53,927 bases of DNA. Source: a virus. Under the pieces are notes generated by a model, which worked only from the letters and a program-made list of their open reading frames with translations, did no database searches and was not told where the DNA came from. Positions 14,801 through 35,956 of the stretch are shown here, in pieces. Each line of letters opens with the position of its first letter. The stretch's first letter is position 1. The translations under genes and the position numbers were made by a program. The stretch is from IMG/VR virus record IMGVR_UViG_3300037585_001389, positions 1-53,927 of that record; one strand, given 5' to 3'.

Positions 14801-17287
14801 CCTGGTAACATTTATGATGGTGTTTACGCTAATGGTCGTTGGCATGACGAGTATGTAATTGACTCGACAATAACTGCTGAACATAGTCTTGACGAATTCA
14901 CGGGAAACCCCGGAATACCGCAACAGTGGTATTGGAATGAAATATCTACGAGTGTAACAGAGAGAACTGCTTGGATGACTAATGTTAAAGATGACGGTAC
15001 CAAAGGCATGGCGAAACCAGGTAGAGGTTTGTTTAATTCTGGAGATTACGGATACATGGATATATCATGGAGCGGTTTTTCAAATGCAGATAATTACATA
15101 CACGCTGACGGGGTAGGTTGGTGGGTTGAAACTGAAGATGCTGAAGCAAACCAAGTAACACGCTTAGCATATGATCCTGATTTCAATGGAACAGGTGACT
15201 CGCCAGCAGACTTCATAGAAAAGCTTTACAGACCTGGTGCTAAATTTAGATTTAAACTCGATCCAGATAACACCCCATATACAGTATACTCTAATTGGGA
15301 TATTGCTATTGGTGATTCATATAATTACACGAATATAAACGAGATAAATAACGATGGAACTGGCATCTATGGTGCCGGTTATCTTAACTCAATGTATCGT
15401 CACGGTCACTACGGGATACGGAACTATAAAACCTCTACCTCAGATGGTCAGTGGGATGGTTTTAATTTACGTCAAAAGTGGTCTATTAAAGTTACCCCAC
15501 CGTTCGGTAGTGGCCCAAGTGGGTATACACCTACCACTGGTACTCAAAACTCTGGAGGTGGTATAACAGCAATAAGAGCCGTGCATCACGATGGAACCGG
15601 ACCTTATGACGCTATAGAGATACTAGCGCCTACCACTATAGATGATGATGGAAACGATATAAGTGGAGGTTTCGTGAGTAATCCAGCTGTCTGGGAAACT
15701 AAACCTAAAGAGAGTGTGGATATAGATATATACTATCAAGCTAGCGATATAATTCCTTTAGGTGTAACGTCTGAAACAGATGAAGATCTTATTCCAACAA
15801 ACTCAACTTTTACGCTTGGTGCTACAACTCACACGGTAACCAGCTGGGACAAATTAAAGATAAACACAGACTCTAATATTACTGCAGCTAGTTTTGACGC
15901 TGCTAGTATTACTTATGTTATTATAACCACTCCAAGTGGTAGAGAAACTACACTACAACTAAGTGGCGTTCAAGGTCAAAGTTACGTTACTTTGGAAGGC
16001 GTCCCTGGTTTACCCTATGTATCTCATATGTTACCTTGGAGTAACTGCTGGAGTTTTGGTAACGGTGTTGAATCAGATAGAGTACGAGATGATTATAACG
16101 CTCCGCAGATGGACAATGGAGTTAAAGCGTCCACAGTACTAGCTGAGCAGGTTAAAGAAGAGAGGAGAAAGCATGGTTTAATCTGGTCTGGTATATACAA
16201 CTCTACTTCGGGTATAAATGAAACAAATCAATTTGCCACAGGAGAAAAGATTACTAAAGACTTGAATCCAGTTTATGGAAGTTTACAGGCTCTACTTAAT
16301 AGAGACACTAGACTCGTTATGTTCTGCGAAGATAGGGTTTTAAAAGGTGTTACAAATAAAGATGCTTTATATAACGCTGACGGTAATCCTCAGCTTGTAT
16401 CTAGCAACGCCACTGTTGGTGATGTAACTCCATACGTAGGTAATTGGGGTATATCTAAAAACCCTGAGTCTTTAGCTGTATCACCTTCAACAGCTTACTT
16501 TACAGATGTTAATAGAGGTAGAGTTTTAGCCCTTTCTGGAGAAGGTATAAGACCTATATCAGATATAGGTATGGAGGGGTATTTCTCCACCTTGAAACAA
16601 GTTAGTGGAACTGTGTTGGGTACTTTTGATACTATGGCTAAAGAGTACAATCTAACATACAAACTTTTTAACACCGCGTCTTTTAGCGAAAGAAGTAACT
16701 CTTGGGTGAGCTTCAAGAGCTTTGATCCACAGGCTGGTGTTAGTTTAAACAACGACTATTATACGTTTGCTAATGGAGATTTATGGGCGCATCACACTAA
16801 TTCTCTTTATAATAATTTTTATGGTAGTCAATATAAATCTAGCGTGACAACTATATTTGGAGACACTAGTGGTAAAGTAAAAAGCTTTAACACCGTGAAC
16901 TATGAAGGGTCTCAAGCTAGAGTAACCGCATTCACTGATATTGACGACGTTAATTTGCTAAACGGTGTTTGGGCTACTAATGATGGTGTTACTGAAACTG
17001 ACAATGTAACAGATGGAGAGTATTTTAACTTAGTTACGAAAAAAGGATGGTATCTAAGTAGTATGAAAACAGATCTACAAACAGCTTCGGAAACTGAGTT
17101 TAAAGATAAAGAGGGAAAATGGTTTGGAGTACCTAGTGGAGATAATACGGTATCTAGTACCGCTAATTTTTCTACTCAAGGATTAGGTACAGCTACAGCA
17201 GTTCATAGTGGATCAGCTAGTGGTACTGTTACTATATCGCTTGCTAATAGCTCTACTGGTAGTGATGGAAGTGATTGGGATCAATAA
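11828..17287 (+). CDS. giant tail nozzle/stabilisation-type structural protein, 1819 aa
   Basis: The N-terminus carries a pattern typical of tail-tube nozzle/DNA-stabilisation proteins of Bacteroidota podoviruses: 'KMNKDSDERVIPPGEYRDAL' (residues 12-31), then 'VGSLQNIKGNT'. These proteins form a beta-propeller nozzle below the connector that closes the DNA channel. Near the end, 'ESLAVSPSTAYFTDVNRGRV' and 'LSGEGIRPISDIGMEGYF' (about residues 1545-1585) look like further propeller blades. The long middle (residues 550-1480) is beta-rich, with many Asp/Gly/Asn and aromatic residues, probably inserted surface domains. At 1819 residues it is much larger than T7 gp12 or P22 gp10. Family call moderate, structural role strong. 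Confidence 0.75.
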   Translation: MAELKRNFLKAKMNKDSDERVIPPGEYRDALNVQIQTSSTGDVGSLQNIKGNTKITNVVGAGTYPTPHADDICVGIVSHPSTDKIYYFINSGGGDVKKDYILQYDPIANLITYVFVDIYSVKKTGLSGTAATFPVDAAEAKTIRPGMIFEAGNTTYKVTKVDPSGTPTVTLDAAALLPDPLVLTHRRTLNFPEKLITGINILDDNLFWTDNATEPKRINITRSIRGTGGASAVPATLPLGDNANYHTRFIRVTPGTSSDLEMITYENGGTFPRFMALKDITVIRKPPLQALKVSAFNTVEERADPVSGIVNATIIWAGLYPVGSVITGLTFTFPVDFRDGDIVSFTALSGTTTASGSYDIKLEVLPTVSTFEGAFDSGYEFKVLTISADLIPTINDWTIKLVTREAFLDDKFVRFSHRYKYQDGEYSTFAPWSEVAFIPGMYNYSAQEGYNEGMANRVRSLTLENYVPVNLPYGVTDIDLLYKETNNPTVYTVETVKPTVTSYEMLTDMVHAVVPSSQLLRPWDNVPRVALAQEVSANRVIYGNYLQNYNVNEEPSATVTTRSKAINPSSGIGGMPSVKSLRQYQVGVVFSDEYGRETPVLTSTNQSTHVGVDLAPMYNRLKVALDIKGPPPPTWAKYYSFYVKEPTVEYYTLAMDRWYNAADGNIWISFPSSERNKLDEETFLYLKKAHGNNIQVSSGIEYKILAIENEAPDFIKTLYRHVGDIDNSSGSNDNIGTDEGGYPLMGTRVISIFDPGTGSLGDELSGDALLTSYWRLRFSDTDDVAGTLSKFYDVDKVTKSNSKIFFHLHGSISNDLSFATTAGDANTYENRIDTLRVQIFKGAIKSRPEFDGRFFVKIAKDIDITNYVTSFEGDDWLVYDSRDLAYINNNCYVDTSPFSQPTSFESSDTWFDTPDEDHPTEHANAQGGGSTYTWSDASGVLGTSLTNNDNTGGAALNNGGPESTDFWKIAAGRFFIDRASAYSWSGRDQHLPGNIYDGVYANGRWHDEYVIDSTITAEHSLDEFTGNPGIPQQWYWNEISTSVTERTAWMTNVKDDGTKGMAKPGRGLFNSGDYGYMDISWSGFSNADNYIHADGVGWWVETEDAEANQVTRLAYDPDFNGTGDSPADFIEKLYRPGAKFRFKLDPDNTPYTVYSNWDIAIGDSYNYTNINEINNDGTGIYGAGYLNSMYRHGHYGIRNYKTSTSDGQWDGFNLRQKWSIKVTPPFGSGPSGYTPTTGTQNSGGGITAIRAVHHDGTGPYDAIEILAPTTIDDDGNDISGGFVSNPAVWETKPKESVDIDIYYQASDIIPLGVTSETDEDLIPTNSTFTLGATTHTVTSWDKLKINTDSNITAASFDAASITYVIITTPSGRETTLQLSGVQGQSYVTLEGVPGLPYVSHMLPWSNCWSFGNGVESDRVRDDYNAPQMDNGVKASTVLAEQVKEERRKHGLIWSGIYNSTSGINETNQFATGEKITKDLNPVYGSLQALLNRDTRLVMFCEDRVLKGVTNKDALYNADGNPQLVSSNATVGDVTPYVGNWGISKNPESLAVSPSTAYFTDVNRGRVLALSGEGIRPISDIGMEGYFSTLKQVSGTVLGTFDTMAKEYNLTYKLFNTASFSERSNSWVSFKSFDPQAGVSLNNDYYTFANGDLWAHHTNSLYNNFYGSQYKSSVTTIFGDTSGKVKSFNTVNYEGSQARVTAFTDIDDVNLLNGVWATNDGVTETDNVTDGEYFNLVTKKGWYLSSMKTDLQTASETEFKDKEGKWFGVPSGDNTVSSTANFSTQGLGTATAVHSGSASGTVTISLANSSTGSDGSDWDQ

Positions 17288-20808: not shown

Positions 20809-22017
20809 ATGGCAAACGGAACATCGGCACCTAATTATAGGTTGTCACAAGGAACACAGCGACGAGTATATGAAGCTGGGGTTGACCCAGTGAATACCAA
20901 ATCTGGTAAGACCGCGCGTCAACACTTGACTAGAGCTGCTATAGCGGGTGAAGTGGGTAAGATAGCTACAGGTATAAAAGATCAGATCGTAGCAAAGCAG
21001 GAGGATACAGCGGCACGTGAGAACGCGTGGGAGACGGGTTTTGATGCTATGGGTGATAGAGGTTCATGGGCCTCAGGAGAATTGTATGACCAATTCCAAA
21101 CTATGGAAAACGAATACAAAGATAATTACTTAGAAGCAGTTAGAAAGGGAGATAAGAAAGAGCAAGCTCGTATGTTGAAAGATCAAGCCACAAGGGCTTC
21201 AGGTCTTAAGGGTTGGAAAGAGACTATGGAGACAGCGAAGAAAATTAACGATGGAGTAGGGTGGAGTAATACTTTCAAAGGTGATCCAGAATCTCTGCAT
21301 ATAATGAATGCTTTAACAACGTTAGATGGTAAAACAGCTGTAACTAGATTTGGAGAAAACGGTGAGATGGTATTTGATATTAAAATGCCAGACGGAAGTA
21401 CAAAATCTATAACACGTCGCGAAGCGGATGACATGATAGCCAAAGGTGTTAAACCAGTTAAGCAAGAGTTAGACTTTATGAATGGATTACTATCTTATGA
21501 AGAAGCTGGTGCTAATGGAAAGCCTTTTAATGCTGATATTGTTAAACGTAAAAACGAACTTAATATAAAGGACGAAGAGGTGTCTTCATTAATGAGAGAA
21601 GATTTTGGTGGAGGCGGAAGTTTTTCTAATCATATAAAATCACACCCAGACATGATAGCGCAGTTCGCGGATGTGATGGGTGATGGAGATGGTACAATAA
21701 CAACAGAGGAAAAAGCGGCCTTTGATTTGCTAATAAATAGCGACATGGATGCTATAATAGACGCGATGGAGGCAAATCCTAAAGTTGCTAAAGGTTATAT
21801 AGCAGAATGGAAAACACTACAAGAAGAAGAAGCATGGAAGAGAGGTCGTGGGGGATACGATGCCGCTCAATATCAAGATGGTTTATCAAAGTTTAAGAAA
21901 GGCTCTTTGGAACAGAGGCAGTATATATGGGACCATGAGACTGCTAAAGCAACTCAGGGAATGACACCTACAGAACTTATCGAGTTCATTAACTCTAACC
22001 CAGCTCCAACAGAATGA
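20809..22017 (+). CDS. putative internal virion protein with EF-hand-like motif, 402 aa
   Basis: It is rich in Lys, Glu, Asp and Gly and helical throughout, with no membrane segment. Around residues 290-301 it has 'M-G-D-G-D-G-T-I-T-T-E-E', which fits the 12-residue EF-hand loop at positions 3, 5, 6, 8 and 12. Position 1 is Met rather than Asp, so calcium binding is uncertain. The stop overlaps the start of the giant gene by four bases (ATGA), a sign of coupled translation. Middle partner of a three-gene ejection-protein set by position. Confidence 0.65.
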   Translation: MANGTSAPNYRLSQGTQRRVYEAGVDPVNTKSGKTARQHLTRAAIAGEVGKIATGIKDQIVAKQEDTAARENAWETGFDAMGDRGSWASGELYDQFQTMENEYKDNYLEAVRKGDKKEQARMLKDQATRASGLKGWKETMETAKKINDGVGWSNTFKGDPESLHIMNALTTLDGKTAVTRFGENGEMVFDIKMPDGSTKSITRREADDMIAKGVKPVKQELDFMNGLLSYEEAGANGKPFNADIVKRKNELNIKDEEVSSLMREDFGGGGSFSNHIKSHPDMIAQFADVMGDGDGTITTEEKAAFDLLINSDMDAIIDAMEANPKVAKGYIAEWKTLQEEEAWKRGRGGYDAAQYQDGLSKFKKGSLEQRQYIWDHETAKATQGMTPTELIEFINSNPAPTE

Positions 22018-25000
22018 ATGAAGAATTAGAAAGACTTGTTGGTGTTCTTCAGGCTCAAGGTGCTAGCATGTCTGAAATACAGAACGCTATAGCTCAATAT
22101 AAGCAAACAAACCAGGGTGGAGAAGACTCTAATGAAGAAGAGGTTCCAACTGGTCCTACAGTTGATGCTGATGGTGTTAACGTAGACACGTATATTGATG
22201 AAACTTTTTGGGAGGTAAATAAGGTTGATGCGGATGGAAATAAGAAACTTGATAGAGATTCCTACTTCGATGAGCAAGGAAATTTTATCCAGTTTCAGGA
22301 CCAAATGCGATCGGATGCAGATTACTGGTTAGGGTATGAAAAAGTACTCAAAGAAATGGAGACGAAAAATGCTGTAACTAAAGATGCGGTTATGGTTGAA
22401 GACACCTCTTCTGAGGGTTTTATTCAAAAAGCACTTGAAGGAGAGGACGAAAATATATCAAACGCTGCTCAAACTAAGTACAACACCCACGTTCAACAAG
22501 AGATTGATTATAATAATATTACTGATGAGGAAAGGCAAAACGAAGCAAAACTTCGTAAAGAATATCTTACTCAATATGTAAAAAATGGCGGGAACCTTGA
22601 TTACTATAATGAAGAGAGGTTAATGGAAAAAGATGGTATAGATACATCAAAATTACCATCTAAAATAGAATCTGAATACGAAGCTAATAAGAACAATTAT
22701 TTTAATCAAAAATTGACTATAGCAAAACGCAGGTGGTTAAAAGAAACTGGATACAAGTTAGATAGCCCTGAGGGTGAGAAGCTTTTGGAAAAGCTAGAAG
22801 AAGTAACTCTAGCAGATATTGAAGGGGATGAAATAAAAGCAGTCGGTAAAGGCGAGCAATCACTAGCAACTATTTTTAACTCTATATCTAACGATGATGC
22901 AGAATTTAAAGAGGCAGTTCTAGATACTGAAAGAACCCTCGAGCGTAACACTATTCTTAGAAGCAAAACCTCAGAGATGGCTGATGCTTTTGATAAGTCC
23001 GGAACATTTTCTGGTCAACTCCCTGGTAATCAAACAATAAACGCTTTGTTTGGAAAATCGGTACAACAAGTTACTATAGAGGATTTTGCTTTAAAAGATT
23101 TAGAGACTATAGAAAGTGAAGCAAAAGACAAGAGTATTGAGGCTAGTCTAATTCACGAGCAGTACAACCGCGTTTATGATAAGCTAACAGAAACAGCTGC
23201 TGACTTAAAGGAGATAGGAGATCCAAAAGTTAAGATAGAAGCTATTAAAGCTAAACACGATTTAACTACGGATAAAGGTATTAAAGCCGCAAATGAGGAG
23301 ATTACAGGATTTATAGATAGGTATTCCGATTTAGTTAATGATCACAACAACGGCTCAGATGCTCTGAAAGATATATCTTTAGCTGTAACTCAGATTAAAC
23401 AGGAGATGGGTGATCTAGCTGTTCGTGAGCAAGATTTAGGTGTGTTCACGGATCAAATAGGTAAGAATCACAGGGTAGCAACTCAAATGGCTACAGCGTT
23501 TGCTAACGCTACCGTAGACTTAGCTGAAGGAGCAGCTGATGTTGTTTACATGGTAAACCCGCTTGGAGCTTTAGCTGATGAACTTATAGATTACGCAGGT
23601 GAAGATTCTTACTTAGGAACTGTAGTAGAAACAGCTAGAATATTAGCAGCGCCATTTACAGGTGGTGCGTCAATGTATTCTGGAAAAAGGAGAGATGATA
23701 TTAAAGATGCTATCAACGGTTACCAAGAGCATGTTAGTTCTCTGGTTGCTGAACCTCCAAGATACGATGACATTCAAGGTGTGGGAGATGCTGTTGAATG
23801 GGCACTAGTAGCTGGTGCAACTCAAGCTCCCCAACTTGCTATATTAGCGGCTACAGGTGGTACAGCCGGTTTAGTTATGATGGGTGCTATGTCTGCTGGT
23901 CAGAAGTTTAGCGCTATGGAGGATCAACGAGAGTTGTTTGAAAAGACTGGTGGGCTATATGGTCAAGACCATAACTTTGCTACTATGTATGCGGCTAGTG
24001 TAGCTAGCGGCGCTATAGAATCTTTATCTGAAAAGGTTACACTTGGCCTTATGAAGGGAACCGGTGGATTGACAACTAAATATCTATTCGGTGAAGTTGG
24101 TAAGAAAACAGCTGGTAGCTTTTTCAGAAGGAATATACTTAGTGGTGACGCTTTAAAATACTCTGCTAAAAAACTTATAGACATAGGTGAAGAGGGTGGG
24201 TCTGAGGCTTTAGCTACTATAGGTGGTAATTACATCGACAGGTTAGCTGGTGATAAAACCGTTAATATACTTAGTGGGGTAAACGAATCGTTTGTTACTG
24301 GAGCTCTTATAGGTTCTACACTCGTTATGCCCACAGTGTTTAGGGATGCTCACTCTTCTTTCAAAAGCGTAGAAGCTTCTGATGTGATGGAAATTAACTA
24401 TGCTAGGATCCAGGAGCAGAACGCTATAATAAATGACCCTAATTCTACACCGGCTGCTAGAGACGCGGCGGTTGAACTCAATAAAGAGTTAGTAGCTGAA
24501 AATGCTAGTGTAATAGCTTTAGATTTAAAAAGAGTTGATTCTCTGACTAAACCAGAGAAAAAGAGGTTAGTAGAGATAGAGGTTGAAAACAGAAAGATAG
24601 AGCAACAAGCTCTAGAGATCGCTCAATCAGACGCTACGCAGGCTGATAAAGATAAGCAGATAGAAACCCTTAATGAAGTTTATAATAAAAACTTAAACGA
24701 GAAAAACGGTGTTATAGCTAAGTACCCAGCTGATGAGGTTTTACGTGCTCACAAGCAAGAGCTACAGAGACTACAAGATCAATCTGACGCTATCGAAGCT
24801 GAGGGTGGGGCTAAGATCAATGTTACTAGAGGTCAGTCTAAGACTGATGAAGGTTTAGTGGTTGAATTTGACGCATGGAAAAAAGAAGCCCAAAAGAAAG
24901 GTAACGTAAGGATAGCAGCGTCAGAAGATGGCACTCAAGTTTATGGAGCTATGGTTCCAGTATTAAATAACGCTGGTGAGGTGACTAGCTATGAAATGTT

Positions 25001-28000
25001 CTTTAACGAAAAGAATATTTTTGAAGATGGTAAAACAACAACAGCTTCGCATGAGCTTTTACATGCTGCTGTATTCAACACTATACGCGCTAACCCTGTA
25101 TTACGCAGAAGGTTCGGTGAGGCTATAGAAAATATATTAGATGGACCAGGTGTTAAGATAAACGAAGAGGCTAGAAAAGATTTAGAAAGAGTCAAGCAGT
25201 ACGGTAAGACCGCTAGAGGCGAGGAGATATTTGCTATTGTGTCAGAGAACATGGTCAAGGGTAATATCACTATAGACGGCGGGGCTATTGGTAAGATGAA
25301 AGATCTGATGCGTAGGACTAGCATGGCTACTACAGATACCGATATTGAGTTTAATGATGAACAAGATATTAGAAACTTTCTAAAAGACTACAGCAGATCT
25401 AGAACAAAGGGTGTAAACGATAAACGTATTACAAGCTTGTTTGTTAAAGGAGCTAAAGGTAAATTAGTTGAAACACCGGCAACTAGAGAGGAAGCTAAAA
25501 AGATCATAGAGGAAAAGCACGAAGAGCAAGCTAAAGAGGATTTCCAAGAGACTCTTATGGCTAGCATGAGGTCTCAACCTGATATGAGGCAAGAGATAGA
25601 TGACATAGTAAAAAACCCTGATGGTACACGTAAGTATCAAACCAAAGAAGATTTCAACCGCCGAGGTGGAGTAGAATCCGCGTGGATGAAAATAAGTCAA
25701 AGCCCTTTACTTGACGGTCTTATTCAACAAGGTATGGTAGAGAGGGGTGTACCACCTCAAGCTATGCGGGATTTTACAAGGAACGTTAAAGACGGTTTGA
25801 TGGAGAGATTGTACAAGCAGTATGATCCAGCAAAAAATGATAGCTTATTCGGTTGGTTAACTGGTGTTTCTGGTGGAGCTGGTATGTCTCAGATATACAG
25901 GGCTAAGGGTGATGTTATGAACGCTTACAAGAAGGACAACATGCTGAACGTTGTCTCTCTTGATGCACCTATGGGCGAAGGTACTTCATTTGAAGCTACT
26001 ATAGAAGCTGAGACAGACACTTTTATGCAACAGCTTGAGGAGATGGACATGACTAAGACACGTGAAGCACGTGAAGCTAGAAAACCTAAAAAGGTTGTTA
26101 ACGAGTTAAACATAGATAGTAAAGGTAAATCAAATATTAAACAGGCTATTGTTGACGCGAACCTTAGCCTTGAGGGAGTACAGTATAAAGATGTTAAGAA
26201 ACTTACCACTGGTAAAGGTGCTCCATTATCAAGCGTGTTAGACATCATCGCGGAAAAGTTTGGTGTTGATCCTAAACGTATCATTAAACCATCAGATCTA
26301 AATGGTAAGCAAAGAAAAGCTGCGCAGAGTTTCATTAATAAGAACGCTGCGTTTTTATTAGAGATGTTACCCGAAGGCGAAACCGTAAGCGGTGAAGCCA
26401 CTGGTGTTGCTAACACTAAGCTTGGAGAACTCTATGAAAAAGGAGAGAGGTTGAAGTTTAAAGATGGAGCTACAGCCGCGGGTAAGTTCTCTCAACAAAA
26501 AAAATCTGACTTAACTGTTGAGCAGTTTAAAGAACTATTTGGTATTAAACCAGACGGAACTTTTGATAATAACAGGAAGCACGATGGTGCTATAAAAGCT
26601 TTAGTTAATCAAGCCACGGTACTCGCTGCTAATCAAGCGTTAAGAGAAAACGCTATGGAAAATGGTACATCTTCAGAAGCTGTTATCGCTAAGCTTGGAG
26701 AAGGGAGAGCTGAGGTAATGTTTAGCGTAAAAGTAAGGGAGAAAGTTAAAAATACTTTTGATCAACTATACCCTGATTTAATAAAAGCTGTAGCTAACTC
26801 TAACACTGGCGATATAGATTCTATACGCGTAGGAGTTGAAGCTGTTTACGGTGAAATACTTAATAAATCTGAGATTAATAGATTAGTAAACGAGGTTTAT
26901 GATCAAGCAGACGAGTACAATACTATAAGCCAAGATCTTAAAAGCGCTGGTACTGTCGCGCCTTTAAGCTTAGAACAGTTTTTACAAGACAAGTACGATA
27001 GTGCTAACACTGAAAAAGGCGTATTAAAAGCATTACAAGATAAGCTACCAAAAGATAAAGAAACTAAGAAGACTATAAGTGTAGGCGCTCATTTTTTAAC
27101 TGATACAAAAATAAATCAACAACGAGCTATACCAGGTTTAATATCAGCTGAAATGAAAAAGCAGCTAGATGAAAACGGAAACAGAGTTTATTCTGACAAG
27201 CAGATAGCTGAAATGCTTATAGCACATGTTGCCCCTATGTACGCTGGCGCAGGTAAAATAGCTGATGGAAGATTTATAGTTGTAGACGGTGTTATGATTA
27301 AGGATCCTGAGTGGGATGTTAGAAAAGATGGTTCTCCTGGAAACAAATGGAGGAGGTGGAATAAGAGTGACGTAAAAAAAGCTAGCGATAAATTATTTGC
27401 TAATAGAAGAAACCTTCTAACTAAAGCACAAATAGCTGCGTTGGGTCCAGTGCCAGTAAGATCTTACGAAGATGGTGGTAAATTTAAGTATGAAAAAGAA
27501 TATCGGTCTTACCAAGCAAAACTTAGCACAGCAAGACTTAAAGCCCGTTTGGCTCTAGAGCCTAAAGTTGGAGATCTTAAGCTTGATAGCAAAGGTAACA
27601 AAATACCTAAGAAAAACAGAAAACAATGTTGTCAAGGTATGCCTGATTTTATCAATATACTTAACACAATTGGCTTAGGTAATATACAAAAAGCTGGAAG
27701 AGGTTACACGTTAGACGGGGTTACTTTAGACACTACGTTAATACCTGAAACGTCAGAAGCTAGATTAAGATTAGCTAAAGATCCTAATTCAAAAGTTTTT
27801 GAAAACGGTAAGAAGCAAGCTGAGGACGCGCGAGTTGTTGTTAAATTAATGCTAGACACTTTATACGCTAAACTTAATTCTAAAGACGATTACGCTAATT
27901 TTGCTATGACTTTAACTAGCCTTGGCTCTAGTATGCAAGCGCCTATGAGGAGAGCTGCTATGTTTGAGTATTTTATGGAAGGTGTTGAAGATATAGTCGC

Positions 28001-31000
28001 AAACAAAGGTAAAGCTAGTATCGGATCTATTACTGAATTTGAGCATTTAAAACCTCAAGAAGAAACTATTGGAGAAATTATACACTCTTACCTAACCAAT
28101 GGTGAGCTTGACATGCGTATATTTGAGGGCGGTGGACCTTACAGACCTTATAAGACTGGGGTTCTTAGTAAAGATATGGATAACGCTCAAACAGACGCTG
28201 GGCATAAATTCACCTCGCCAAGTATGACGAGAGGTGATAGTAGGCAATACTCTTTAGAAGCTATCCGTGATACTCGTATTAGGCCTCTTAGAAGTATTGA
28301 CCCCGCTAAAATAGATACTAATAAAGAGTTCGTGGGTAGAGAGTGGGTTGCTATGAATGACGCGCTTGCTGAGGGTAAGAACTTGCAGAATGATAAAATC
28401 CTTCAAGGTGTATGGGGTAACATTAGTTTTTCTAAACGCGCTATCCCGTCTACCACCGGAATTAAGGTGACGGGGAAACTAGGAAAATTTAAAACTAAAA
28501 TAGACGTTGAAGGTGGGTTCTTAGGTAGTTTAAATAAAGCCACATTATCTGGATCTACTGTAACGATACAAGCTACCGTTGGCTCGGATCGAAGTGAGTT
28601 TAACATGGTAAAAAATCAACCTGTTAGTTTCGATATTAAAGTAGGTTCAGACGGAAACATAAGCCTTATTAAAAGTGAAAGTATTGCAGACTCGGCTTTG
28701 TTCAATGCTTTAAATGGTTGGATTCAACATAGAAATAAAGACTTTAGAGGTAGAGATAATGTAGGGGTTTTAGATTCACTAGGTATTACTGGTAGATTAA
28801 ATACTAGACGACGAGGTGGTGTTGGACCGATAAACATGGAGGTTACTGAGATCAACTCACCTGGTCCACAACAATACGATATACCACTTCAAACTGAAGG
28901 TATGTTTTCTAAGAAGTCTGCTAAACCTAAAGGTATATCTGTATTGGATTTTGATGATACATTAGCTACAACAAAATCTAACGTTTGGTTTACAACACCC
29001 AGCGCTAAGGGTTTAAACTTCGAGTTGAATCCAGAGGATTTCTACGCTACGCTAACTGGTCCGGAAGGCACTAGAGTAATGTGGCTCAATAGAGACGAGA
29101 GTACGCGCGGTAGAGGTTACGGGTTGATCAAAGTGTTAGATGTAGATGGTAAACCTATGGGTAGCGGGAGTGTTGTGGACCCTAAGATGGATTTCAAGGA
29201 ATTCTTAAAGAAAACCAGACACCAAGCTAGAAGCGGTGGTCTTGTATCAAATCCACGTGAGGTTAAAGTAATTCAAGGTGTACTGAACGCTGAGCAGTTC
29301 GCTAAAGCTGGTAAAGATTTACTAGCTGAAGGAGTTGAGTTTGACTTCTCTGAATTTAATAAAGTTGTTGACGGTAAAATAGCGCCATTGTTTAATAAGG
29401 CTATGAAGCTTGCTGATAAGTTTGGAACAGATAACATGTTTATCCTTACAGCTAGGTCACCTGAATCAGCTGAAGCTATCAAGCAGTTCTTAGACGCCCA
29501 AGGTTTAAACATACCTATTGAAAACATAACTGGTTTAGGCAAATCAGAGGCGTCAGCTAAAGCTAATTGGATAGCAGAAAAAATAGGTGAAGGCTATAAC
29601 GACTTCTATTTTGCAGATGATGCTATACAAAATGTAGAGGCGGTTAAGAACATGCTAGACGCATTTGACGTTAAAGGTAAAGTTCAACAAGCAAAGGTAG
29701 AGTTTAGTAGACGAGCTCCTCAAGAGATGGATAATATTATCGACGAGGGAGCTGCTGATTTAGATTCTGATCTTAACATTATACTAGAAGAAAGCAAGGG
29801 CGTTAGCCGTGTAAAAAGATTTTCACCAGCTAAAGCTAGGAAGAGGGGTAAGAACAAAGGCAAGTTTAAATTCTTTATTCCACCTTCAGCAGATGACTTT
29901 GCGGGTTTGATGTATGCATTTATGGGTAAAGGTAAAACCGGTGATAGGCATCATAAGTGGTTTAAAGAGAATTTATTTGATCCCTTCTCTAAAGGTATAA
30001 GAAACCTCAACATGGTTAAACAAGCTGTGGCAAATGACTTAAAGAGGATTAGAAAAGCTATGCCTGAAGTTACCAAAAAACTAACTAATAAAATTGGTAA
30101 CACGGAGTATACGCATGGTGATGCTATAAGGGTTTACAACTGGAATAGAGCTGGGTTTGACATACCGGGTTTAACGGAGACAGATAAAGCTGATTTGATA
30201 AGAGAAATTGAAGCAGATCCTCAGTTAAAAGCGTTTGCTGATGGTGTGAGCTCTATAGGCAATATGCCAGGAGGTTTAACTCAACCAGGTGAACACTGGT
30301 TAGGTGGTACCATAGCTTCTGATATGACAGATGCATTTAAAGATGCTAGATCCGTGTTCCTGCAACAGTGGAAAGATAACGTTGACGTTATTTTCAACGA
30401 AGCTAACATGAATAAGATTGAAGCTGTATACGGTTCTAACTTTAGGGAAGCCTTAGAAGACATCTTATATAGGATGGAACATGGAGGTAATAAATCTCGT
30501 GGAGCTGGAAGGTTATTAAACAACTTCACTAGCTGGATACATGGGTCTATAGGTACAACTATGTTCTTTAATGCTAGATCCGCTGTGCTACAAATGATAT
30601 CAAATGTAAACTTCATTAATTGGAGTGATAACAACATGATGCAAGCTGCAGCGGCATTTGCCAATCAACCACAGTACTGGAAGGACGTGGCTATGATATT
30701 CAACTCTCCTTTCCTAAAACAAAGGAGAGCTGGTTTAAAGACAGATGTCAACGCGGCTGAGCTACTAGCTGATATAAAGGACTCGAAAAACAAAATGAAA
30801 GCTGCTACAGCTTATCTATTACGACTTGGTTTTACACCAACTCAGATAGCGGATAGTTTAGCTATTGCAACTGGTGGCGCTACGATGTACCGTAACAGGG
30901 TTAAAACATACACTAAAGAGGGTTTATCTCAGTCTGAAGCTGAAACAAAGGCTTTTGAGGATATGATGGAGATCGCTGAGGAAACGCAGCAATCAGCTAG

Positions 31001-32093
31001 AGAAGATAGGATATCTCAACAACAAGCTTCACCTCTTGGTAAGTTTATATTAGCTTTCCAGAACACACCTATGCAATACAACAGGCTTATAAAGAAAGCC
31101 GCTATGGATTTAGTTAACGGTAGGGGTGACGCGAAAGCTAACGTGTCTAGAATAGTTTACTATGGCGCTATTCAAAACATGATCTTCTACGGTTTACAAC
31201 AAGCATTGTTTGCAGCATTATTTGGTGACGACGAAGAGGATGAGTTAACAGACAAGAAAAAAGAAAGGGTTATAAATGGAATGATGGATACGTTATTACG
31301 TGGTTCAGGTATAGCTGGAGCCGCTATATCCACGATTAAAAACGTTATCATGAAGTTCGCTCAAGAGAATGAGAAGATGGAGGATGGCGTATTCTTTACA
31401 GATCCAGATTGGGGCAATGTAGTTATTGAGGCTTTAAATATATCCCCACCAATAGGTATTAAAGCTAGGAAGATTTACAGTGGCTTAAAAACATGGGAGT
31501 ATAACAATGATGTTATCAAGCACATGAGCAAAACAGATTTAGATAATCCTATCTATGACGCTGTATCTAGTGGTGTTGAAGCTGTAACAAACTTACCTTT
31601 AAATAGGTTGTACAACAAGTATCAGAATATTAGCGAGGCTATGAACTCAGATCATGAGACTTGGAAACGTGTTGCTATGTTGCTTGGATGGAGTAAGTGG
31701 AGTTTTGGTATCAAGAACCAAGACGTGATGACGGCTAAAAATGAGGTCAAAGAAATAAGAACTGAGGAGCGAGAGGAGAGAAAGGAAGTAAAGAAGCAAG
31801 AAAGAGCAGCTAAGAAAGCTGAAGAAGAAGCTGCTATAGAGCAAGGGTTTATTGAAGATCAAAAGCAAGAAAGAGAAGACGGGAAAGAAGATATAACTTG
31901 TGCCGCTGTAAATAAATCAGGTAAACGTTGTGGTAAGAAAGTCGAAGGAGGTGGTACATACTGTACTATCCACGAGGAGGTAGAACAACGGGCTGATAAT
32001 AAAAAAGTTCAATGCTCCCATATTAAAACAAGTGGGGATAGGTGTAAAATGAAAACAACAAATAAATCTGGAAAATGTTACTACCACGACTGA
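22014..32093 (+). CDS. giant internal virion / large polyvalent protein, 3359 aa
   Basis: This gene takes up nearly a fifth of the window. Features in order: charged helical N-terminus (1-480); hydrophobic Ala/Gly-rich segments (about 490-550 and 592-637) that could insert in membranes; a zincin-type H1013-E-L-L-H1017 (ASHELLHAA); a segment near 1250-1330 reminiscent of sigma-70 proteins (YDPAKN at 1270, SLDAPMGEG near 1314); a Cys pair at about 1872; a HAD-type phosphatase domain with D2312-F-D-D-T-L, ILTARS at 2477-2482 and YFADD at 2532-2536; a helical region resembling large-polyvalent-protein domain 38 (about 2837-3080, with AFQNTPMQYNRL near 3015); and two identically spaced C-x9-C-x10-C-x2-H motifs at the very end. 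Probably packaged and ejected with the genome. The individual activities are predictions. Confidence 0.8.
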   Translation: MNEELERLVGVLQAQGASMSEIQNAIAQYKQTNQGGEDSNEEEVPTGPTVDADGVNVDTYIDETFWEVNKVDADGNKKLDRDSYFDEQGNFIQFQDQMRSDADYWLGYEKVLKEMETKNAVTKDAVMVEDTSSEGFIQKALEGEDENISNAAQTKYNTHVQQEIDYNNITDEERQNEAKLRKEYLTQYVKNGGNLDYYNEERLMEKDGIDTSKLPSKIESEYEANKNNYFNQKLTIAKRRWLKETGYKLDSPEGEKLLEKLEEVTLADIEGDEIKAVGKGEQSLATIFNSISNDDAEFKEAVLDTERTLERNTILRSKTSEMADAFDKSGTFSGQLPGNQTINALFGKSVQQVTIEDFALKDLETIESEAKDKSIEASLIHEQYNRVYDKLTETAADLKEIGDPKVKIEAIKAKHDLTTDKGIKAANEEITGFIDRYSDLVNDHNNGSDALKDISLAVTQIKQEMGDLAVREQDLGVFTDQIGKNHRVATQMATAFANATVDLAEGAADVVYMVNPLGALADELIDYAGEDSYLGTVVETARILAAPFTGGASMYSGKRRDDIKDAINGYQEHVSSLVAEPPRYDDIQGVGDAVEWALVAGATQAPQLAILAATGGTAGLVMMGAMSAGQKFSAMEDQRELFEKTGGLYGQDHNFATMYAASVASGAIESLSEKVTLGLMKGTGGLTTKYLFGEVGKKTAGSFFRRNILSGDALKYSAKKLIDIGEEGGSEALATIGGNYIDRLAGDKTVNILSGVNESFVTGALIGSTLVMPTVFRDAHSSFKSVEASDVMEINYARIQEQNAIINDPNSTPAARDAAVELNKELVAENASVIALDLKRVDSLTKPEKKRLVEIEVENRKIEQQALEIAQSDATQADKDKQIETLNEVYNKNLNEKNGVIAKYPADEVLRAHKQELQRLQDQSDAIEAEGGAKINVTRGQSKTDEGLVVEFDAWKKEAQKKGNVRIAASEDGTQVYGAMVPVLNNAGEVTSYEMFFNEKNIFEDGKTTTASHELLHAAVFNTIRANPVLRRRFGEAIENILDGPGVKINEEARKDLERVKQYGKTARGEEIFAIVSENMVKGNITIDGGAIGKMKDLMRRTSMATTDTDIEFNDEQDIRNFLKDYSRSRTKGVNDKRITSLFVKGAKGKLVETPATREEAKKIIEEKHEEQAKEDFQETLMASMRSQPDMRQEIDDIVKNPDGTRKYQTKEDFNRRGGVESAWMKISQSPLLDGLIQQGMVERGVPPQAMRDFTRNVKDGLMERLYKQYDPAKNDSLFGWLTGVSGGAGMSQIYRAKGDVMNAYKKDNMLNVVSLDAPMGEGTSFEATIEAETDTFMQQLEEMDMTKTREAREARKPKKVVNELNIDSKGKSNIKQAIVDANLSLEGVQYKDVKKLTTGKGAPLSSVLDIIAEKFGVDPKRIIKPSDLNGKQRKAAQSFINKNAAFLLEMLPEGETVSGEATGVANTKLGELYEKGERLKFKDGATAAGKFSQQKKSDLTVEQFKELFGIKPDGTFDNNRKHDGAIKALVNQATVLAANQALRENAMENGTSSEAVIAKLGEGRAEVMFSVKVREKVKNTFDQLYPDLIKAVANSNTGDIDSIRVGVEAVYGEILNKSEINRLVNEVYDQADEYNTISQDLKSAGTVAPLSLEQFLQDKYDSANTEKGVLKALQDKLPKDKETKKTISVGAHFLTDTKINQQRAIPGLISAEMKKQLDENGNRVYSDKQIAEMLIAHVAPMYAGAGKIADGRFIVVDGVMIKDPEWDVRKDGSPGNKWRRWNKSDVKKASDKLFANRRNLLTKAQIAALGPVPVRSYEDGGKFKYEKEYRSYQAKLSTARLKARLALEPKVGDLKLDSKGNKIPKKNRKQCCQGMPDFINILNTIGLGNIQKAGRGYTLDGVTLDTTLIPETSEARLRLAKDPNSKVFENGKKQAEDARVVVKLMLDTLYAKLNSKDDYANFAMTLTSLGSSMQAPMRRAAMFEYFMEGVEDIVANKGKASIGSITEFEHLKPQEETIGEIIHSYLTNGELDMRIFEGGGPYRPYKTGVLSKDMDNAQTDAGHKFTSPSMTRGDSRQYSLEAIRDTRIRPLRSIDPAKIDTNKEFVGREWVAMNDALAEGKNLQNDKILQGVWGNISFSKRAIPSTTGIKVTGKLGKFKTKIDVEGGFLGSLNKATLSGSTVTIQATVGSDRSEFNMVKNQPVSFDIKVGSDGNISLIKSESIADSALFNALNGWIQHRNKDFRGRDNVGVLDSLGITGRLNTRRRGGVGPINMEVTEINSPGPQQYDIPLQTEGMFSKKSAKPKGISVLDFDDTLATTKSNVWFTTPSAKGLNFELNPEDFYATLTGPEGTRVMWLNRDESTRGRGYGLIKVLDVDGKPMGSGSVVDPKMDFKEFLKKTRHQARSGGLVSNPREVKVIQGVLNAEQFAKAGKDLLAEGVEFDFSEFNKVVDGKIAPLFNKAMKLADKFGTDNMFILTARSPESAEAIKQFLDAQGLNIPIENITGLGKSEASAKANWIAEKIGEGYNDFYFADDAIQNVEAVKNMLDAFDVKGKVQQAKVEFSRRAPQEMDNIIDEGAADLDSDLNIILEESKGVSRVKRFSPAKARKRGKNKGKFKFFIPPSADDFAGLMYAFMGKGKTGDRHHKWFKENLFDPFSKGIRNLNMVKQAVANDLKRIRKAMPEVTKKLTNKIGNTEYTHGDAIRVYNWNRAGFDIPGLTETDKADLIREIEADPQLKAFADGVSSIGNMPGGLTQPGEHWLGGTIASDMTDAFKDARSVFLQQWKDNVDVIFNEANMNKIEAVYGSNFREALEDILYRMEHGGNKSRGAGRLLNNFTSWIHGSIGTTMFFNARSAVLQMISNVNFINWSDNNMMQAAAAFANQPQYWKDVAMIFNSPFLKQRRAGLKTDVNAAELLADIKDSKNKMKAATAYLLRLGFTPTQIADSLAIATGGATMYRNRVKTYTKEGLSQSEAETKAFEDMMEIAEETQQSAREDRISQQQASPLGKFILAFQNTPMQYNRLIKKAAMDLVNGRGDAKANVSRIVYYGAIQNMIFYGLQQALFAALFGDDEEDELTDKKKERVINGMMDTLLRGSGIAGAAISTIKNVIMKFAQENEKMEDGVFFTDPDWGNVVIEALNISPPIGIKARKIYSGLKTWEYNNDVIKHMSKTDLDNPIYDAVSSGVEAVTNLPLNRLYNKYQNISEAMNSDHETWKRVAMLLGWSKWSFGIKNQDVMTAKNEVKEIRTEEREERKEVKKQERAAKKAEEEAAIEQGFIEDQKQEREDGKEDITCAAVNKSGKRCGKKVEGGGTYCTIHEEVEQRADNKKVQCSHIKTSGDRCKMKTTNKSGKCYYHD
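31896..32090 (+). repeat. tandem zinc-binding motifs at the C-terminus of the giant protein
   Basis: Two copies of C-x9-C-x10-C-x2-H occur back to back at residues 3296-3320 and 3334-3358. Each has the form 'C-x-[AH]-x-x-x-[ST]-G-x-R-C ... C-x-x-H', as in small treble-clef-like zinc motifs such as the DUF5763 family ('GxxCxxx...YCxxH'). Spacing is identical in the two copies although the residues differ. Confidence 0.7.
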
Positions 32094-33130
32094 CTTTATT
32101 AACAACTATGATACTGTCCTGCTCTTTATGCTTTGGACAGAGTTTAGCTAAAGCTTTTAAGTTTGCTACGTTTTACACAGCTGTAAATGGAGGGAACTCC
32201 ATAGCTGATCAAGATGTATGGTCTGTTACTCATGGCGGTTTGCAGAACGAAACTGTAGAGACACCATTTGATTATGCGTTTACATTTGGCGTAAGGAAGA
32301 TCGCTAGGTTTGGATATGAAAACAGGGCTAAAGTTTTCTACGATGGAACTGAAGAGTCTTGGTCTGACGGAGCGAACATAGGTAAACGTAACGGCTTAGA
32401 GTTTCTAGCAGAAGCTAAATACAAAAGGCAGATGGGTCAAGAGTTCCTTGATCAAAACCACTTCCTTAGATATGTAGGAGATGAGGTTATAGTTAAAGGT
32501 GAATACCTGCAGGATGGGTTTGCAGATATATCTTACTTTGAAACATCGGAAAGATATAGATTAAAATTAGGTAAAAAGTTTTCATTAAACCTAGGCGTAG
32601 CCCAGAGACTGTCTGAACCATATGGATACGACCCTTTAGCTGATTGGTTATTAGATAATGGAAATTTACATTATACTTATCTAGCTTTACAGGAAGGTTA
32701 TACTATGGAGTTTGACGACCAAGGAGGGATTGAGTATTGCGAGCCGTCAGGGAGGTGTGTTGCTGTTAGTTCAGAGGTTTGGGAGGCTGTAGTTATACCT
32801 GTAGTTATATCTGATTATGTAGATAGGAAGCGAGATGAGTTAAGTAACCTACTTCAATTGTCTGTAGTAGCTGGATTTGATTTCTATCACTACACAGACG
32901 AGTTCTGGTTACACGCATGGGGAAACGCTATGCCGTACCATTATAATAACGGAAACGAATTTATGTATCACAACTCAGTTGGTGGTCAATGGCTTGATTA
33001 TTCTGGTGGTCTTATATTAGGTTACAGAATAAATAAACACCTAGGGTTATTCACTGAAGGCAAGTATAATAAGTACTGGAATAGGGAGTGGTACAATTTT
33101 AAGTGTGGAGTAAACTATGTAATCTTTTAA
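32075..33130 (+). CDS. exported outer-membrane beta-barrel-like protein
   Basis: The 351-residue product starts with a signal peptide: Arg5, a hydrophobic core (LTLLTTMILSCSLCF), and predicted cleavage after Gly21, giving Gln22 as the mature N-terminus. The rest alternates aromatic/hydrophobic and polar residues in strand-like blocks (FGVRKIARFGYENRAKVFYD, SLNLGVAQRL, LSVVAGFDFYHYTDEFWL, GGLILGYRINKHLGLFTEG) and ends 'YNFKCGVNYVIF', with a terminal Phe as in outer-membrane barrels. It overlaps the giant gene by 19 bases and heads the exported cassette. Possible roles are superinfection exclusion, receptor masking or envelope remodelling during lysis; a virion role is also possible. A lipoprotein signal (ILSC) is a less likely reading. 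Confidence 0.65.
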   Translation: MLLPRLTLLTTMILSCSLCFGQSLAKAFKFATFYTAVNGGNSIADQDVWSVTHGGLQNETVETPFDYAFTFGVRKIARFGYENRAKVFYDGTEESWSDGANIGKRNGLEFLAEAKYKRQMGQEFLDQNHFLRYVGDEVIVKGEYLQDGFADISYFETSERYRLKLGKKFSLNLGVAQRLSEPYGYDPLADWLLDNGNLHYTYLALQEGYTMEFDDQGGIEYCEPSGRCVAVSSEVWEAVVIPVVISDYVDRKRDELSNLLQLSVVAGFDFYHYTDEFWLHAWGNAMPYHYNNGNEFMYHNSVGGQWLDYSGGLILGYRINKHLGLFTEGKYNKYWNREWYNFKCGVNYVIF

Positions 33131-33444: not shown

Positions 33445-33813
33445 ATGGAAGAGACAATCAACTTACGTGTAGTATTAACATACGCACTTCTAATGCTAAC
33501 CATGCTTACAGGTGGTGTTGCTTACGGACAAAATTTATGCGGTAGCGATATTTGCGTTGTTCAATTTAACGCTAGTTGGAATCAAAGTAATAGTATAGAT
33601 TACCTCGGCGATCTAACAGATTGTGAGGTTATGAACGTAAGTATAGACGAGGGTACGTACCAATCTGATTACGGAATAGTGGTTGTACCCACCATCATAG
33701 TTTTTAACGGAAAAGAAGTGGAGAGGTTTCAAGCTAATATCATGATGCAGCTAGAGGCTACTAGGGAAGAAGTACAAGCGGTTATCGACGAAGTAATTTA
33801 CAGCGATTTTTAA
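33445..33813 (+). CDS. exported thioredoxin-fold protein lacking CxxC
   Basis: The 122-residue protein has a signal peptide (core VVLTYALLMLTMLTGGVA) with likely cleavage after Gly28 and Gln29 at +1. The mature part has a thioredoxin order: strand 'CVVQFNASW', where W45 sits at the usual Trp before CxxC but is followed by N-Q-S-N; a middle strand 'CEVMNVSID'; and the cis-proline strand 'IVVVPTIIVFNGKEVERF' with P82. A final helix (ATREEVQAVIDEVI) completes the fold. Without CxxC it cannot act as a classical disulfide oxidoreductase. Cysteines 32, 37 and 60 remain. It sits 11 bases after the membrane-protein gene and one base before the type IX substrate, whose many cysteines suggest a chaperone or adaptor role; that link is inference. 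Confidence 0.7.
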   Translation: MEETINLRVVLTYALLMLTMLTGGVAYGQNLCGSDICVVQFNASWNQSNSIDYLGDLTDCEVMNVSIDEGTYQSDYGIVVVPTIIVFNGKEVERFQANIMMQLEATREEVQAVIDEVIYSDF

Positions 33814-33814
33814 C

Positions 33815-35956
33815 ATGAGAAATTTTTTATTAGCATTATTTTTACTACCATTAACAATTTTTAGCCAAGGTAGTTGGGTTAAGATATCTGTGCAGACCGA
33901 TGATTACGGTGGCGAAACATCTTGGGAGATATATCAAGCGGGACAAGTTGTTGCCGCAAGCCCTGCTTATGCTAGCAACGCTTTACAAGAGGTTGTAGTG
34001 CCTCTTAATTCCGGTGAATATAACTTTACTATATATGATTCTTTTGGAGATGGTATATGTTGCGATTATGGACCTGGATGGTATTCCTTAACTAACTCTT
34101 GTGGTTTAGAAGTATTTGATTATGATTTTAGCGGTCCTTCAGCTACCACGTTTTTCGAGTTAGTGGACTGTGAACCACCTGTAGCTGGGTGTATGAATCC
34201 AGGAGCTTTAAACTTTAACCCTTGGGCTAATGATCAAGCGCCATGTGTATTCCCACCTGCTCCTTGTGAGTCTGGTCAAACAAATATCATAGCTTTAATC
34301 ACACCTGATAGCTATCCATCTGAAACAAGCTGGGATATAACCGCTAATGGCGAGATTATAGCATCAGGTGGAGGATACAATACAGCGGGTGTAACAACAC
34401 CAACATATGTGTGTGCGAATGAAGGAGATACCTTAATCGCTAGTATATATGATTCTTACGGAGATGGATTATGTGGAACTTGTTGGGGAGGGATAGATGG
34501 ATATTTTGATGTCACGACTTTATGTGGTGATAATATTTTTGCTATAGGTGGAGTCGAACAATTCGACACCGCATCTTCAGGACCTTATGTAGTTCCACCT
34601 TGTATACCAATAATACCTCAAGGTTGTACAGATTCAAATTACCTAGAGTATGATTCAGAAGCTATAATAGATGACAATAGCTGCTTAACCGAGGTTGTTT
34701 TAGGTTGCACACAAGAAGAAGCGTTGAACTATGATCCTGTTGCTAATACTATAGAGACTGAACCATCGTGTGATTACTCACTAGTGATTACCGACGGTGG
34801 AGCGGATGGCTGGTTTGGTAGTTGGTTGGGATTGAAACAAGGTGATAATTTATATGGACCATATCAAATGGGTCCTAATGATGGTTATGAAGAAGAGTTT
34901 GGTTTAACTTTAAACTCTAATGAAGAGATAAGCGTTTATTTTTTCACGGGTGGTAACGCGGAGACGACAGCCGCTCAGTGTGGGTTTAGAGTTGAGGGAC
35001 CTAATGGAGTGGTATTAGAAAGTGGAACTAACCCTTGGACAGATCCTTTAAAGAAGTTCCCTTATATATATACCGGTACACCCACTTGCTCTGATTACTG
35101 TATACTACCTGTTGCGGGTTGTACAGATGATGAAGCTTGTAATTACAATGACGAAGCTAATGTAGATGAAGGTTGTTTTTATTCTGTGCAGTATTACGAT
35201 TGTGATAACGAGTGTAATAATGATGGTGATGGGGATGATGTATGTGATGAACTCGAGATAGTTGGATGTATGGATCCAACTGCATTTAATTATAATGTTC
35301 TAGCGACTGATGCAGGTGATTGTGAACCGTTTATATTTGGTTGTACGGACCCAACCCAATATAACTATGATCCAGAAGCTAACACAGAAAATGGTGGCTG
35401 TATTCCTTACGTTTACGGTTGTACTAATAGTGATGCCTTTAATTATGATCCGCTGGCTAACTCTGACAACGGCTCTTGTATTGAAGTCTTGGAGGGTTGC
35501 GCGGACCCCGAAGCTTACAACTATGACACGGCGGTTAATATACCTGATCCGGAAGCCTGCCTCTATGAAGCGGTAGGGTGTGTCACAGGTCTAGGTGAGC
35601 CATATGGAGATGGTTATTGGCTCAACGATTTATGTTTCGCTTGGGTTATTGAAGTTGATTCATATTGCTGTGAAGAAGAATGGGATGCTGTATGTCAAGA
35701 GACATTTGATTATTGTCAAGTTACAGGTATAGAATCTATATTGGCTGGAGATGACCTAGTACTGTACCCTAATCCAGTTGGAGATATATTAAACATAAAC
35801 AAAAACATTGATCTAGACGTATTCGATTCTACGGGACGTCTTATCATATCAGAAATAAATACAAACGTCTTAGACGCGTCTCTATGGACCCCAGGGATAT
35901 ATACGATACGTATAATATACAACAACCGAATAATCACAAAGAAGATTATCAAATAA
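33815..35956 (+). CDS. type IX secretion (Por) substrate with Cys-rich repeats, 713 aa
   Basis: The signal peptide has a core LLALFLLPLTIF, with cleavage after Ser17 and Gln18 at +1. Two N-terminal beta-domains follow, each with a 'TSW[ED]I ... G ... IYDS[FY]GDG[IL]C' pattern (about residues 20-125 and 150-260). Then come about eight repeats of the form G-C-x-[DNQ]-x-x-[AY]-x-[NE]-[YF]-[DN]-x-x-[AV] ... C. Residues 590-640 carry a 'YCCEEEWDAVCQ' Cys-rich motif. The last 75 residues are a typical type IX sorting domain: L650-Y-P-N-P-V655, 'IDLDVFDSTGRLI', 'LWTPGIYTIRI', and a basic end KKIIK. In Bacteroidota such domains direct secretion across the outer membrane and anchoring to, or release from, the surface. 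It overlaps the next gene by one base. The repeats resemble host surface proteins, so capture from a flavobacterial host is likely. Confidence 0.85.
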   Translation: MRNFLLALFLLPLTIFSQGSWVKISVQTDDYGGETSWEIYQAGQVVAASPAYASNALQEVVVPLNSGEYNFTIYDSFGDGICCDYGPGWYSLTNSCGLEVFDYDFSGPSATTFFELVDCEPPVAGCMNPGALNFNPWANDQAPCVFPPAPCESGQTNIIALITPDSYPSETSWDITANGEIIASGGGYNTAGVTTPTYVCANEGDTLIASIYDSYGDGLCGTCWGGIDGYFDVTTLCGDNIFAIGGVEQFDTASSGPYVVPPCIPIIPQGCTDSNYLEYDSEAIIDDNSCLTEVVLGCTQEEALNYDPVANTIETEPSCDYSLVITDGGADGWFGSWLGLKQGDNLYGPYQMGPNDGYEEEFGLTLNSNEEISVYFFTGGNAETTAAQCGFRVEGPNGVVLESGTNPWTDPLKKFPYIYTGTPTCSDYCILPVAGCTDDEACNYNDEANVDEGCFYSVQYYDCDNECNNDGDGDDVCDELEIVGCMDPTAFNYNVLATDAGDCEPFIFGCTDPTQYNYDPEANTENGGCIPYVYGCTNSDAFNYDPLANSDNGSCIEVLEGCADPEAYNYDTAVNIPDPEACLYEAVGCVTGLGEPYGDGYWLNDLCFAWVIEVDSYCCEEEWDAVCQETFDYCQVTGIESILAGDDLVLYPNPVGDILNINKNIDLDVFDSTGRLIISEINTNVLDASLWTPGIYTIRIIYNNRIITKKIIK
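34185..35565 (+). repeat. array of about eight Cys-rich GC-x-D/N-x-A-x-NY repeats
   Basis: At protein level the units read, for example, GCMNPGALNFNPWAN, GCTQEEALNYDPVAN, GCMDPTAFNYNVLAT, GCTDPTQYNYDPEAN, GCTNSDAFNYDPLAN and GCADPEAYNYDTAVN, each closed by a later Cys. Each unit has a Cys pair and an Asp/Asn-rich loop suited to calcium. Sharing is at protein level and the DNA is well diverged, so the array is not recent. Confidence 0.75.

Follow-up and report, generated by a model that had tools for sequence, protein, structure and literature searches.

The IMG/VR virus record analysed here, 53,927 bases in length and derived from a marine bacterial virus, is hereafter called the window. It contains four genes, designated A, B, C and D, that follow one another head to tail and are separated by 18, 11 and 1 bases (Table 1). 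The terminase of this phage shares 63% identity with that of the uncultured podovirus MW202828; with those of Flavobacterium 'elemo', Cellulophaga and Tenacibaculum phages, identity is no more than about 45%. Flavophages belonging to the Pachyviridae, Pervagoviridae and Elemovirus (phi13:2, phi38:1, elemo) encode related terminases (31-45% identity) and in several of them, as in the window, a GroES gene adjoins the terminase; the window's GroES-like co-chaperonin gene lies at 1037-1633, and the same arrangement is seen in Cellulophaga and elemo phages. A 3,359-aa protein without a Pfam match is encoded at 22014-32093, and its gene lies immediately upstream of the four genes in podovirus-like relatives.

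Table 1. Genes and protein features of the four-gene region of the window
Feature	Position	Strand	Basis
Gene B, signal peptide and predicted outer-membrane beta-barrel, 351 aa, without known family	32075..33130	+	model (pLDDT 65.8); module conservation
Gene C, 94 aa, short N-terminus, one predicted transmembrane helix, Pro-rich linker, coiled-coil-like segment	33149..33433	+	alignment; module conservation
Gene D, 122 aa, signal peptide and a thioredoxin-like fold lacking CxxC	33445..33813	+	Pfam profile in relatives; alignment
Gene A, predicted exported phage protein, T9SS type A cargo, 713 aa	33815..35956	+	profiles, AlphaFold2 model, Foldseek
Sec signal peptide of A, 18 aa, ..FSQ|G	33815..33868	+	sequence; kept in 76/77 relatives
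Beta-sandwich domain 1 of A, residues 19-116	33869..34162	+	model
Beta-sandwich domain 2 of A, residues 155-254	34277..34576	+	model
Beta-sandwich domain 3 of A, residues 318-421	34766..35077	+	model
Main GCxDPxAxNYxxxAN..C repeat block of A, residues 434-590	35114..35584	+	sequence; many invariant Cys in 36 relatives
Small Cys-rich helical domain of A, ..CFAWVIEVDSYCCEEEWDAVCQETFDYC	35585..35716	+	model; invariant columns in alignment of 36 relatives
T9SS type A C-terminal sorting domain of A	35762..35953	+	TIGR04183, PF18962; Foldseek to T9SS CTDs

Gene A and its sorting domain

The protein encoded by gene A ends in a type A sorting domain of the type IX secretion system (T9SS). Such a C-terminal domain (CTD) had been proposed in an initial annotation on the basis of the motifs YPNPV, FDSTGRLI and PGIYTIRI and a basic end KKIIK, all of which are present in the open reading frame, and the profile search suggested there returned matches above cut-off with both models, namely TIGR04183 (residues 650-713 of 713, E 3.7e-11, 42.9 bits against a cut-off of 23) and PF18962 (residues 650-712, E 2.1e-9, 38 bits against a cut-off of 27). 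A six-frame search of the window recovered the domain with an E value of 4.9e-14, and in a control comprising 14 well-known genomes matches were found in only two. In an AlphaFold2 model of A (m3b65d7e27788, mean pLDDT 76.7), the last 73 or so residues resemble the NucA substrate in a T9SS complex (8glk_D, TM 0.73), the mirolase CTD (8qb1, TM 0.61) and the RgpB CTD (7pq4, TM 0.56), each with a probability of 1.00. The signal peptide that had also been noted, MRNFLLALFLLPLTIFSQ, is present in the sequence, and by a simple hydrophobicity rule 76 of 77 relatives with intact N-termini likewise have one. A therefore combines a CTD above the curated cut-off at its extreme C-terminus, an Ig-like CTD fold and an N-terminal Sec signal peptide, and in its signal peptide, Ig-like CTD of about 65-75 residues, basic end and fold match it equals T9SS type A cargo such as RgpB, mirolase and NucA. 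On the other hand, it differs from these proteins in being phage-encoded, in belonging to a fixed four-gene module and in having a body without a Pfam family.

The body of A departs in part from the initial description, since the model gives three beta-domains where two had been recognized, while the count of about eight Cys-rich repeats held, except that the eight GCxDP-type repeats found are scattered between the beta-domains (residues 125-318) and after them (435-590) instead of forming a single block, with three copies lying upstream of the main one. The body has no Pfam family above cut-off, and Foldseek searches with it returned multi-domain matches of low TM that were uninformative. Among 36 A proteins searched for a function via Pfam, the sorting domain alone was consistent, with TSP3, GM130_C, T4_Y03C and P35 each appearing as a single weak match. 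GCxDP-type repeats also occur at locus L022 (3563-12025) within a 2,820-aa protein related to the product of the window's open reading frame at 11828-17287, and virion-type phage proteins therefore share the repeat with secreted ones. The profile matches, the modelled fold, the signal peptide, the conservation of A and the exchange of its tail (see below) give good support to the view that the phage encodes a protein that the type IX system of its host should export.

A conserved four-gene envelope module

The initial reading of A as a phage protein destined for type IX export stood, but it treated as a lone cargo what is a member of a four-gene envelope module with B, C and D, nearly universal among the phages carrying it. 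Gene B encodes a signal peptide and, in a model of medium confidence, a barrel fold whose PDB matches are mostly outer-membrane barrels (NanC, BamA, FapF, OmpG), the combination expected of an outer-membrane beta-barrel protein. An assignment to PorP/SprF was considered and rejected, as B has no NCBIfam or Pfam match of any family and the model shows a barrel without indicating which family. For C, searches of Pfam, NCBIfam and PHROG for an Rz/Rz1-type spanin gave no match, and its topology alone resembles an i-spanin. The Pfam Thioredoxin profile matches six of nine D members (best E 7.4e-6) and was not detected in the window's own copy; in the alignment D has WNxxN where an active thioredoxin has WCxxC, so that D is predicted to be a periplasmic thioredoxin-like protein lacking the active-site motif.

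In a first set, each of the 51 loci in which B was flanked by 5 kb or more on both sides contained A, B, C and D, and once independent scans with C and with distant B members were added, the full set was found in 85 of the 87 distinct loci having 6 kb flanks. One of these 85 (L295) has as its assigned A a 134-aa match of doubtful nature, and the two exceptions are L260, with B, C and D and no recognizable A, and L278, with C, D and A and no B. These loci were drawn from the best matches to A, B and C (best 80 per scan) and are not a random sample. The gene orders observed, ABCD (46), BCDA (34) and CDAB (5), are all rotations of A-B-C-D. At least 568 viral relatives of B and at least 555 of C were detected. 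Outside these contigs the module is rare: a scan of 84,980 bacterial and archaeal species found B in no more than five contigs, all from MAGs, and B was present in one of 395 Bacteroidota genomes, also a MAG, with the proviso that MAGs and viral contigs in the survey may be incomplete. Neither B nor C matched anything in 50,697 deposited phage genomes, and for A the matches in deposited phages were to GCxDP repeats only, in five records. TIGR04183 likewise gave no match in 13 sampled phage records, most of them with Bacteroidota hosts and including members of the Pachyviridae, Pervagoviridae and Elemovirus.

A terminase of the window's family (phrog_6681-type) is present in 32 of 43 module-bearing records, three of them weakly, and the T4-type capsid protein Gp23 in eight. 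Judged from these marker genes, the module crosses apparently unrelated phage lineages, both T4-like and podovirus-like. Marine Bacteroidota are abundant, yet the module is wholly absent from the deposited phages searched, so that a host secretion system appears to be exploited by a large population of phages in nature in a manner not seen in laboratory models. B and C could accordingly serve as marker genes for uncultivated phages of marine Bacteroidota.

Cargo genes of the SprB type lie beside a gene for a PorP/SprF outer-membrane barrel. The A-B arrangement can be likened to such pairs in that a cargo gene adjoins an outer-membrane barrel gene, and is unlike them in that B has no PorP/SprF match and the tail of A is of type A, not type B. 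The use of type IX secretion by phages had been described as rarely discussed, and this agrees with the literature searched, in which two earlier papers dealt with T9SS sorting domains in phages (PMC7468147 and PMC6949934); in another, secretion is not mentioned (PMC7198788). It has been reported that Cryophage encodes proteins with T9SS type A sorting domains which are thought to use the host system (PMC7468147), and such domains are reported in genomes of gut phages with BACON repeats (PMC6949934). Because of these reports, phage-encoded T9SS cargo is already known as a kind. The Cryophage cargo, however, consists of variable accessory genes in one phage (an endoglucanase, a GH39 protein and a PA14 protein; PMC7468147), whereas A is a single conserved family in which no enzyme domain is recognized and which unrelated phages carry as a fixed part of a module; the BACON phages have domains other than those of A, and the passages of that report considered here describe no such four-gene module (PMC6949934). 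As far as the literature was searched, the barrel family B, the exchange of tails and a fixed four-gene module that is near-universal in a large group of uncultivated phages are new.

Exchange of the C-terminal tail

Nearly every A protein with an intact C-terminus ends in a type A CTD, in a diverged CTD (for example with YPVP) or in a short tail of about 31 residues with the consensus ITDLLGRPxKxxKNKLLFFIYxDGTVEKK, which replaces the CTD in 17 of the 87 loci; outside the tail these proteins range from about 630 to 1150 aa. At loci L067 and L035 the A cores are 95.6% identical over 632 aa and carry different tails, and the 92% identity of their DNA stops where the tail starts. Mapping tail type on the B-gene tree requires a minimum of five changes, of which starred branches force three or more. 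There is thus strong evidence at the sequence level that the C-terminus of A functions as an exchangeable export signal, because two proteins so closely related bear different tails.

Among viral contigs, the best 80 matches to the short tail were all A proteins. In bacteria, it was found in proteins of 69 of 196 Flavobacteriales genomes, with up to 38 scored copies each, and in two of 198 genomes sampled across the whole phylum, the genomes richest in it being about 1-2 Mb in size. It was observed as TDLLGR..LLFYIYDDGTVEKK at loci L108-L124 and in genomes G050 and G448-G601. A T9SS sortase model matches all 24 short-tail genomes tested (23 above cut-off), and these genomes also encode 25-64 type A CTDs each. 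In the bacterial proteins examined, 1-3 residues separate the end of the short tail from the stop, and a signal peptide is present in most of those with a readable N-terminus. The short tail, to which the phage module points, is probably a second, shorter T9SS sorting signal in marine Flavobacteriales with small genomes, one that perhaps falls outside the coverage of TIGR04183.

Possible roles at the host cell surface

In an infected flavobacterium, A, B and D would be exported by Sec, and A would fold in the periplasm before the host T9SS recognizes the tail and delivers the protein to the external side of the outer membrane. T9SS export in Porphyromonas gingivalis is followed by removal of the CTD and attachment of the cargo to A-LPS (PMC5445135). 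C would be located in the inner membrane and D in the periplasm, with the barrel B inserted in the outer membrane, and A would act with all three; since B, C and D constantly accompany A, a joint action across all envelope layers may be supposed. At a late stage of infection, as the gene position of the module suggests, the set would then remodel the infected cell's surface, and sites covered or altered in this way would no longer allow adsorption of other phages and of the phage's own progeny, so that the remodelling would work against other phages or against the loss of progeny on debris. It has been suggested that the T9SS-exported adhesins SprB and RemA may be phage receptors, and gliding or T9SS mutations give phage resistance in related bacteria (PMC13288928). 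Phage T9SS cargo would therefore sit where exclusion would act, and surface remodelling is favoured because gliding and T9SS surface proteins of Flavobacteriia can be phage receptors. Against exclusion, none of the four proteins resembles a known exclusion protein, and the conservation of B and C (about 50-95% identity between loci) exceeds what would be expected for matching variable receptors. The chances appear about even that A to D remodel the infected-cell surface late, most likely to stop adsorption by other phages and by the progeny of the phage itself. For the broader proposal, that a four-gene envelope module near-universal in uncultivated marine Bacteroidota phages takes over the host T9SS to rebuild the cell surface and evolves through tail swaps that suit it to the export signals of each host lineage, we would lean slightly in favour. 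In any case, the module offers a direct entry to what its carrier phages do to the cell surface.

The main rival to surface remodelling is a role in lysis or egress, possible although on present evidence rather unlikely, in which the four proteins would constitute the outer-membrane stage, with C acting from the inner membrane, B located in the outer one and surface-anchored A weakening or opening the latter in place of spanins. Predicted lysis genes are found close to the module in some loci, as would also suit this role: a predicted two-helix gene of about 80 aa adjoins it in 13 of 20 loci, against 2.8 expected, and a PG_binding/Amidase_2 endolysin does so in 5 of 8, against 1.2 expected; however, the former is termed holin-like from hydrophobicity alone, and the M15 endolysin is not enriched (7 observed, 7.1 expected). 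Similarly, C has the topology of an inner-membrane spanin, with one helix followed by a coiled-coil-like segment, and the strong conservation of B and C together with the near absence of the module from bacterial genomes is as expected of strictly virulent phages, but there is no spanin-family match and a large Cys-rich surface protein such as A has no obvious part in lysis. It is less easy still to credit that A occupies or binds the T9SS, jamming the export of host adhesins and receptors, or binds cells together. In favour of this, a host-type sorting tail is the sole strictly shared C-terminal property of A proteins, whose remainder varies in length; against it, the conserved Cys scaffold implies that the body matters too, and B, C and D would not be needed for jamming.

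We consider it very improbable that A is a virion protein whose CTD is simply an Ig-like structural domain, despite its position among structural genes and the occurrence of GCxDP repeats in large virion-type proteins such as that of L022 and in a virion protein of Synechococcus phage S-CAM3, because A, B and D carry signal peptides, the sorting tails match those of hosts and are exchanged as a unit, and A is co-conserved with a membrane barrel. Finally, CTD proteins are otherwise typical of Bacteroidota genomes, and the initial annotation had allowed that the open reading frame might be a host fragment misassembled into the phage contig. This explanation has already been refuted, given that dozens of independent contigs carry homologues with the same gene neighbourhood and that the GC content of gene A matches that of the phage (0.400 versus 0.388); A relatives were found in 21 viral contigs, six of them at 70-86% identity over nearly the full length and with the same flanking phage genes.

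Other genes were also observed at the module. A predicted lipoprotein of about 183 aa (..ETDDLGFR.Y.IP.G.HSSGSF.NHP..) is encoded within or beside it at L033, L056, L058, L067 and L072, and a small SNase-domain nuclease gene adjoins it in 15 of the 24 loci having that gene (6.5 expected), for example at 8262-8642 of L012.
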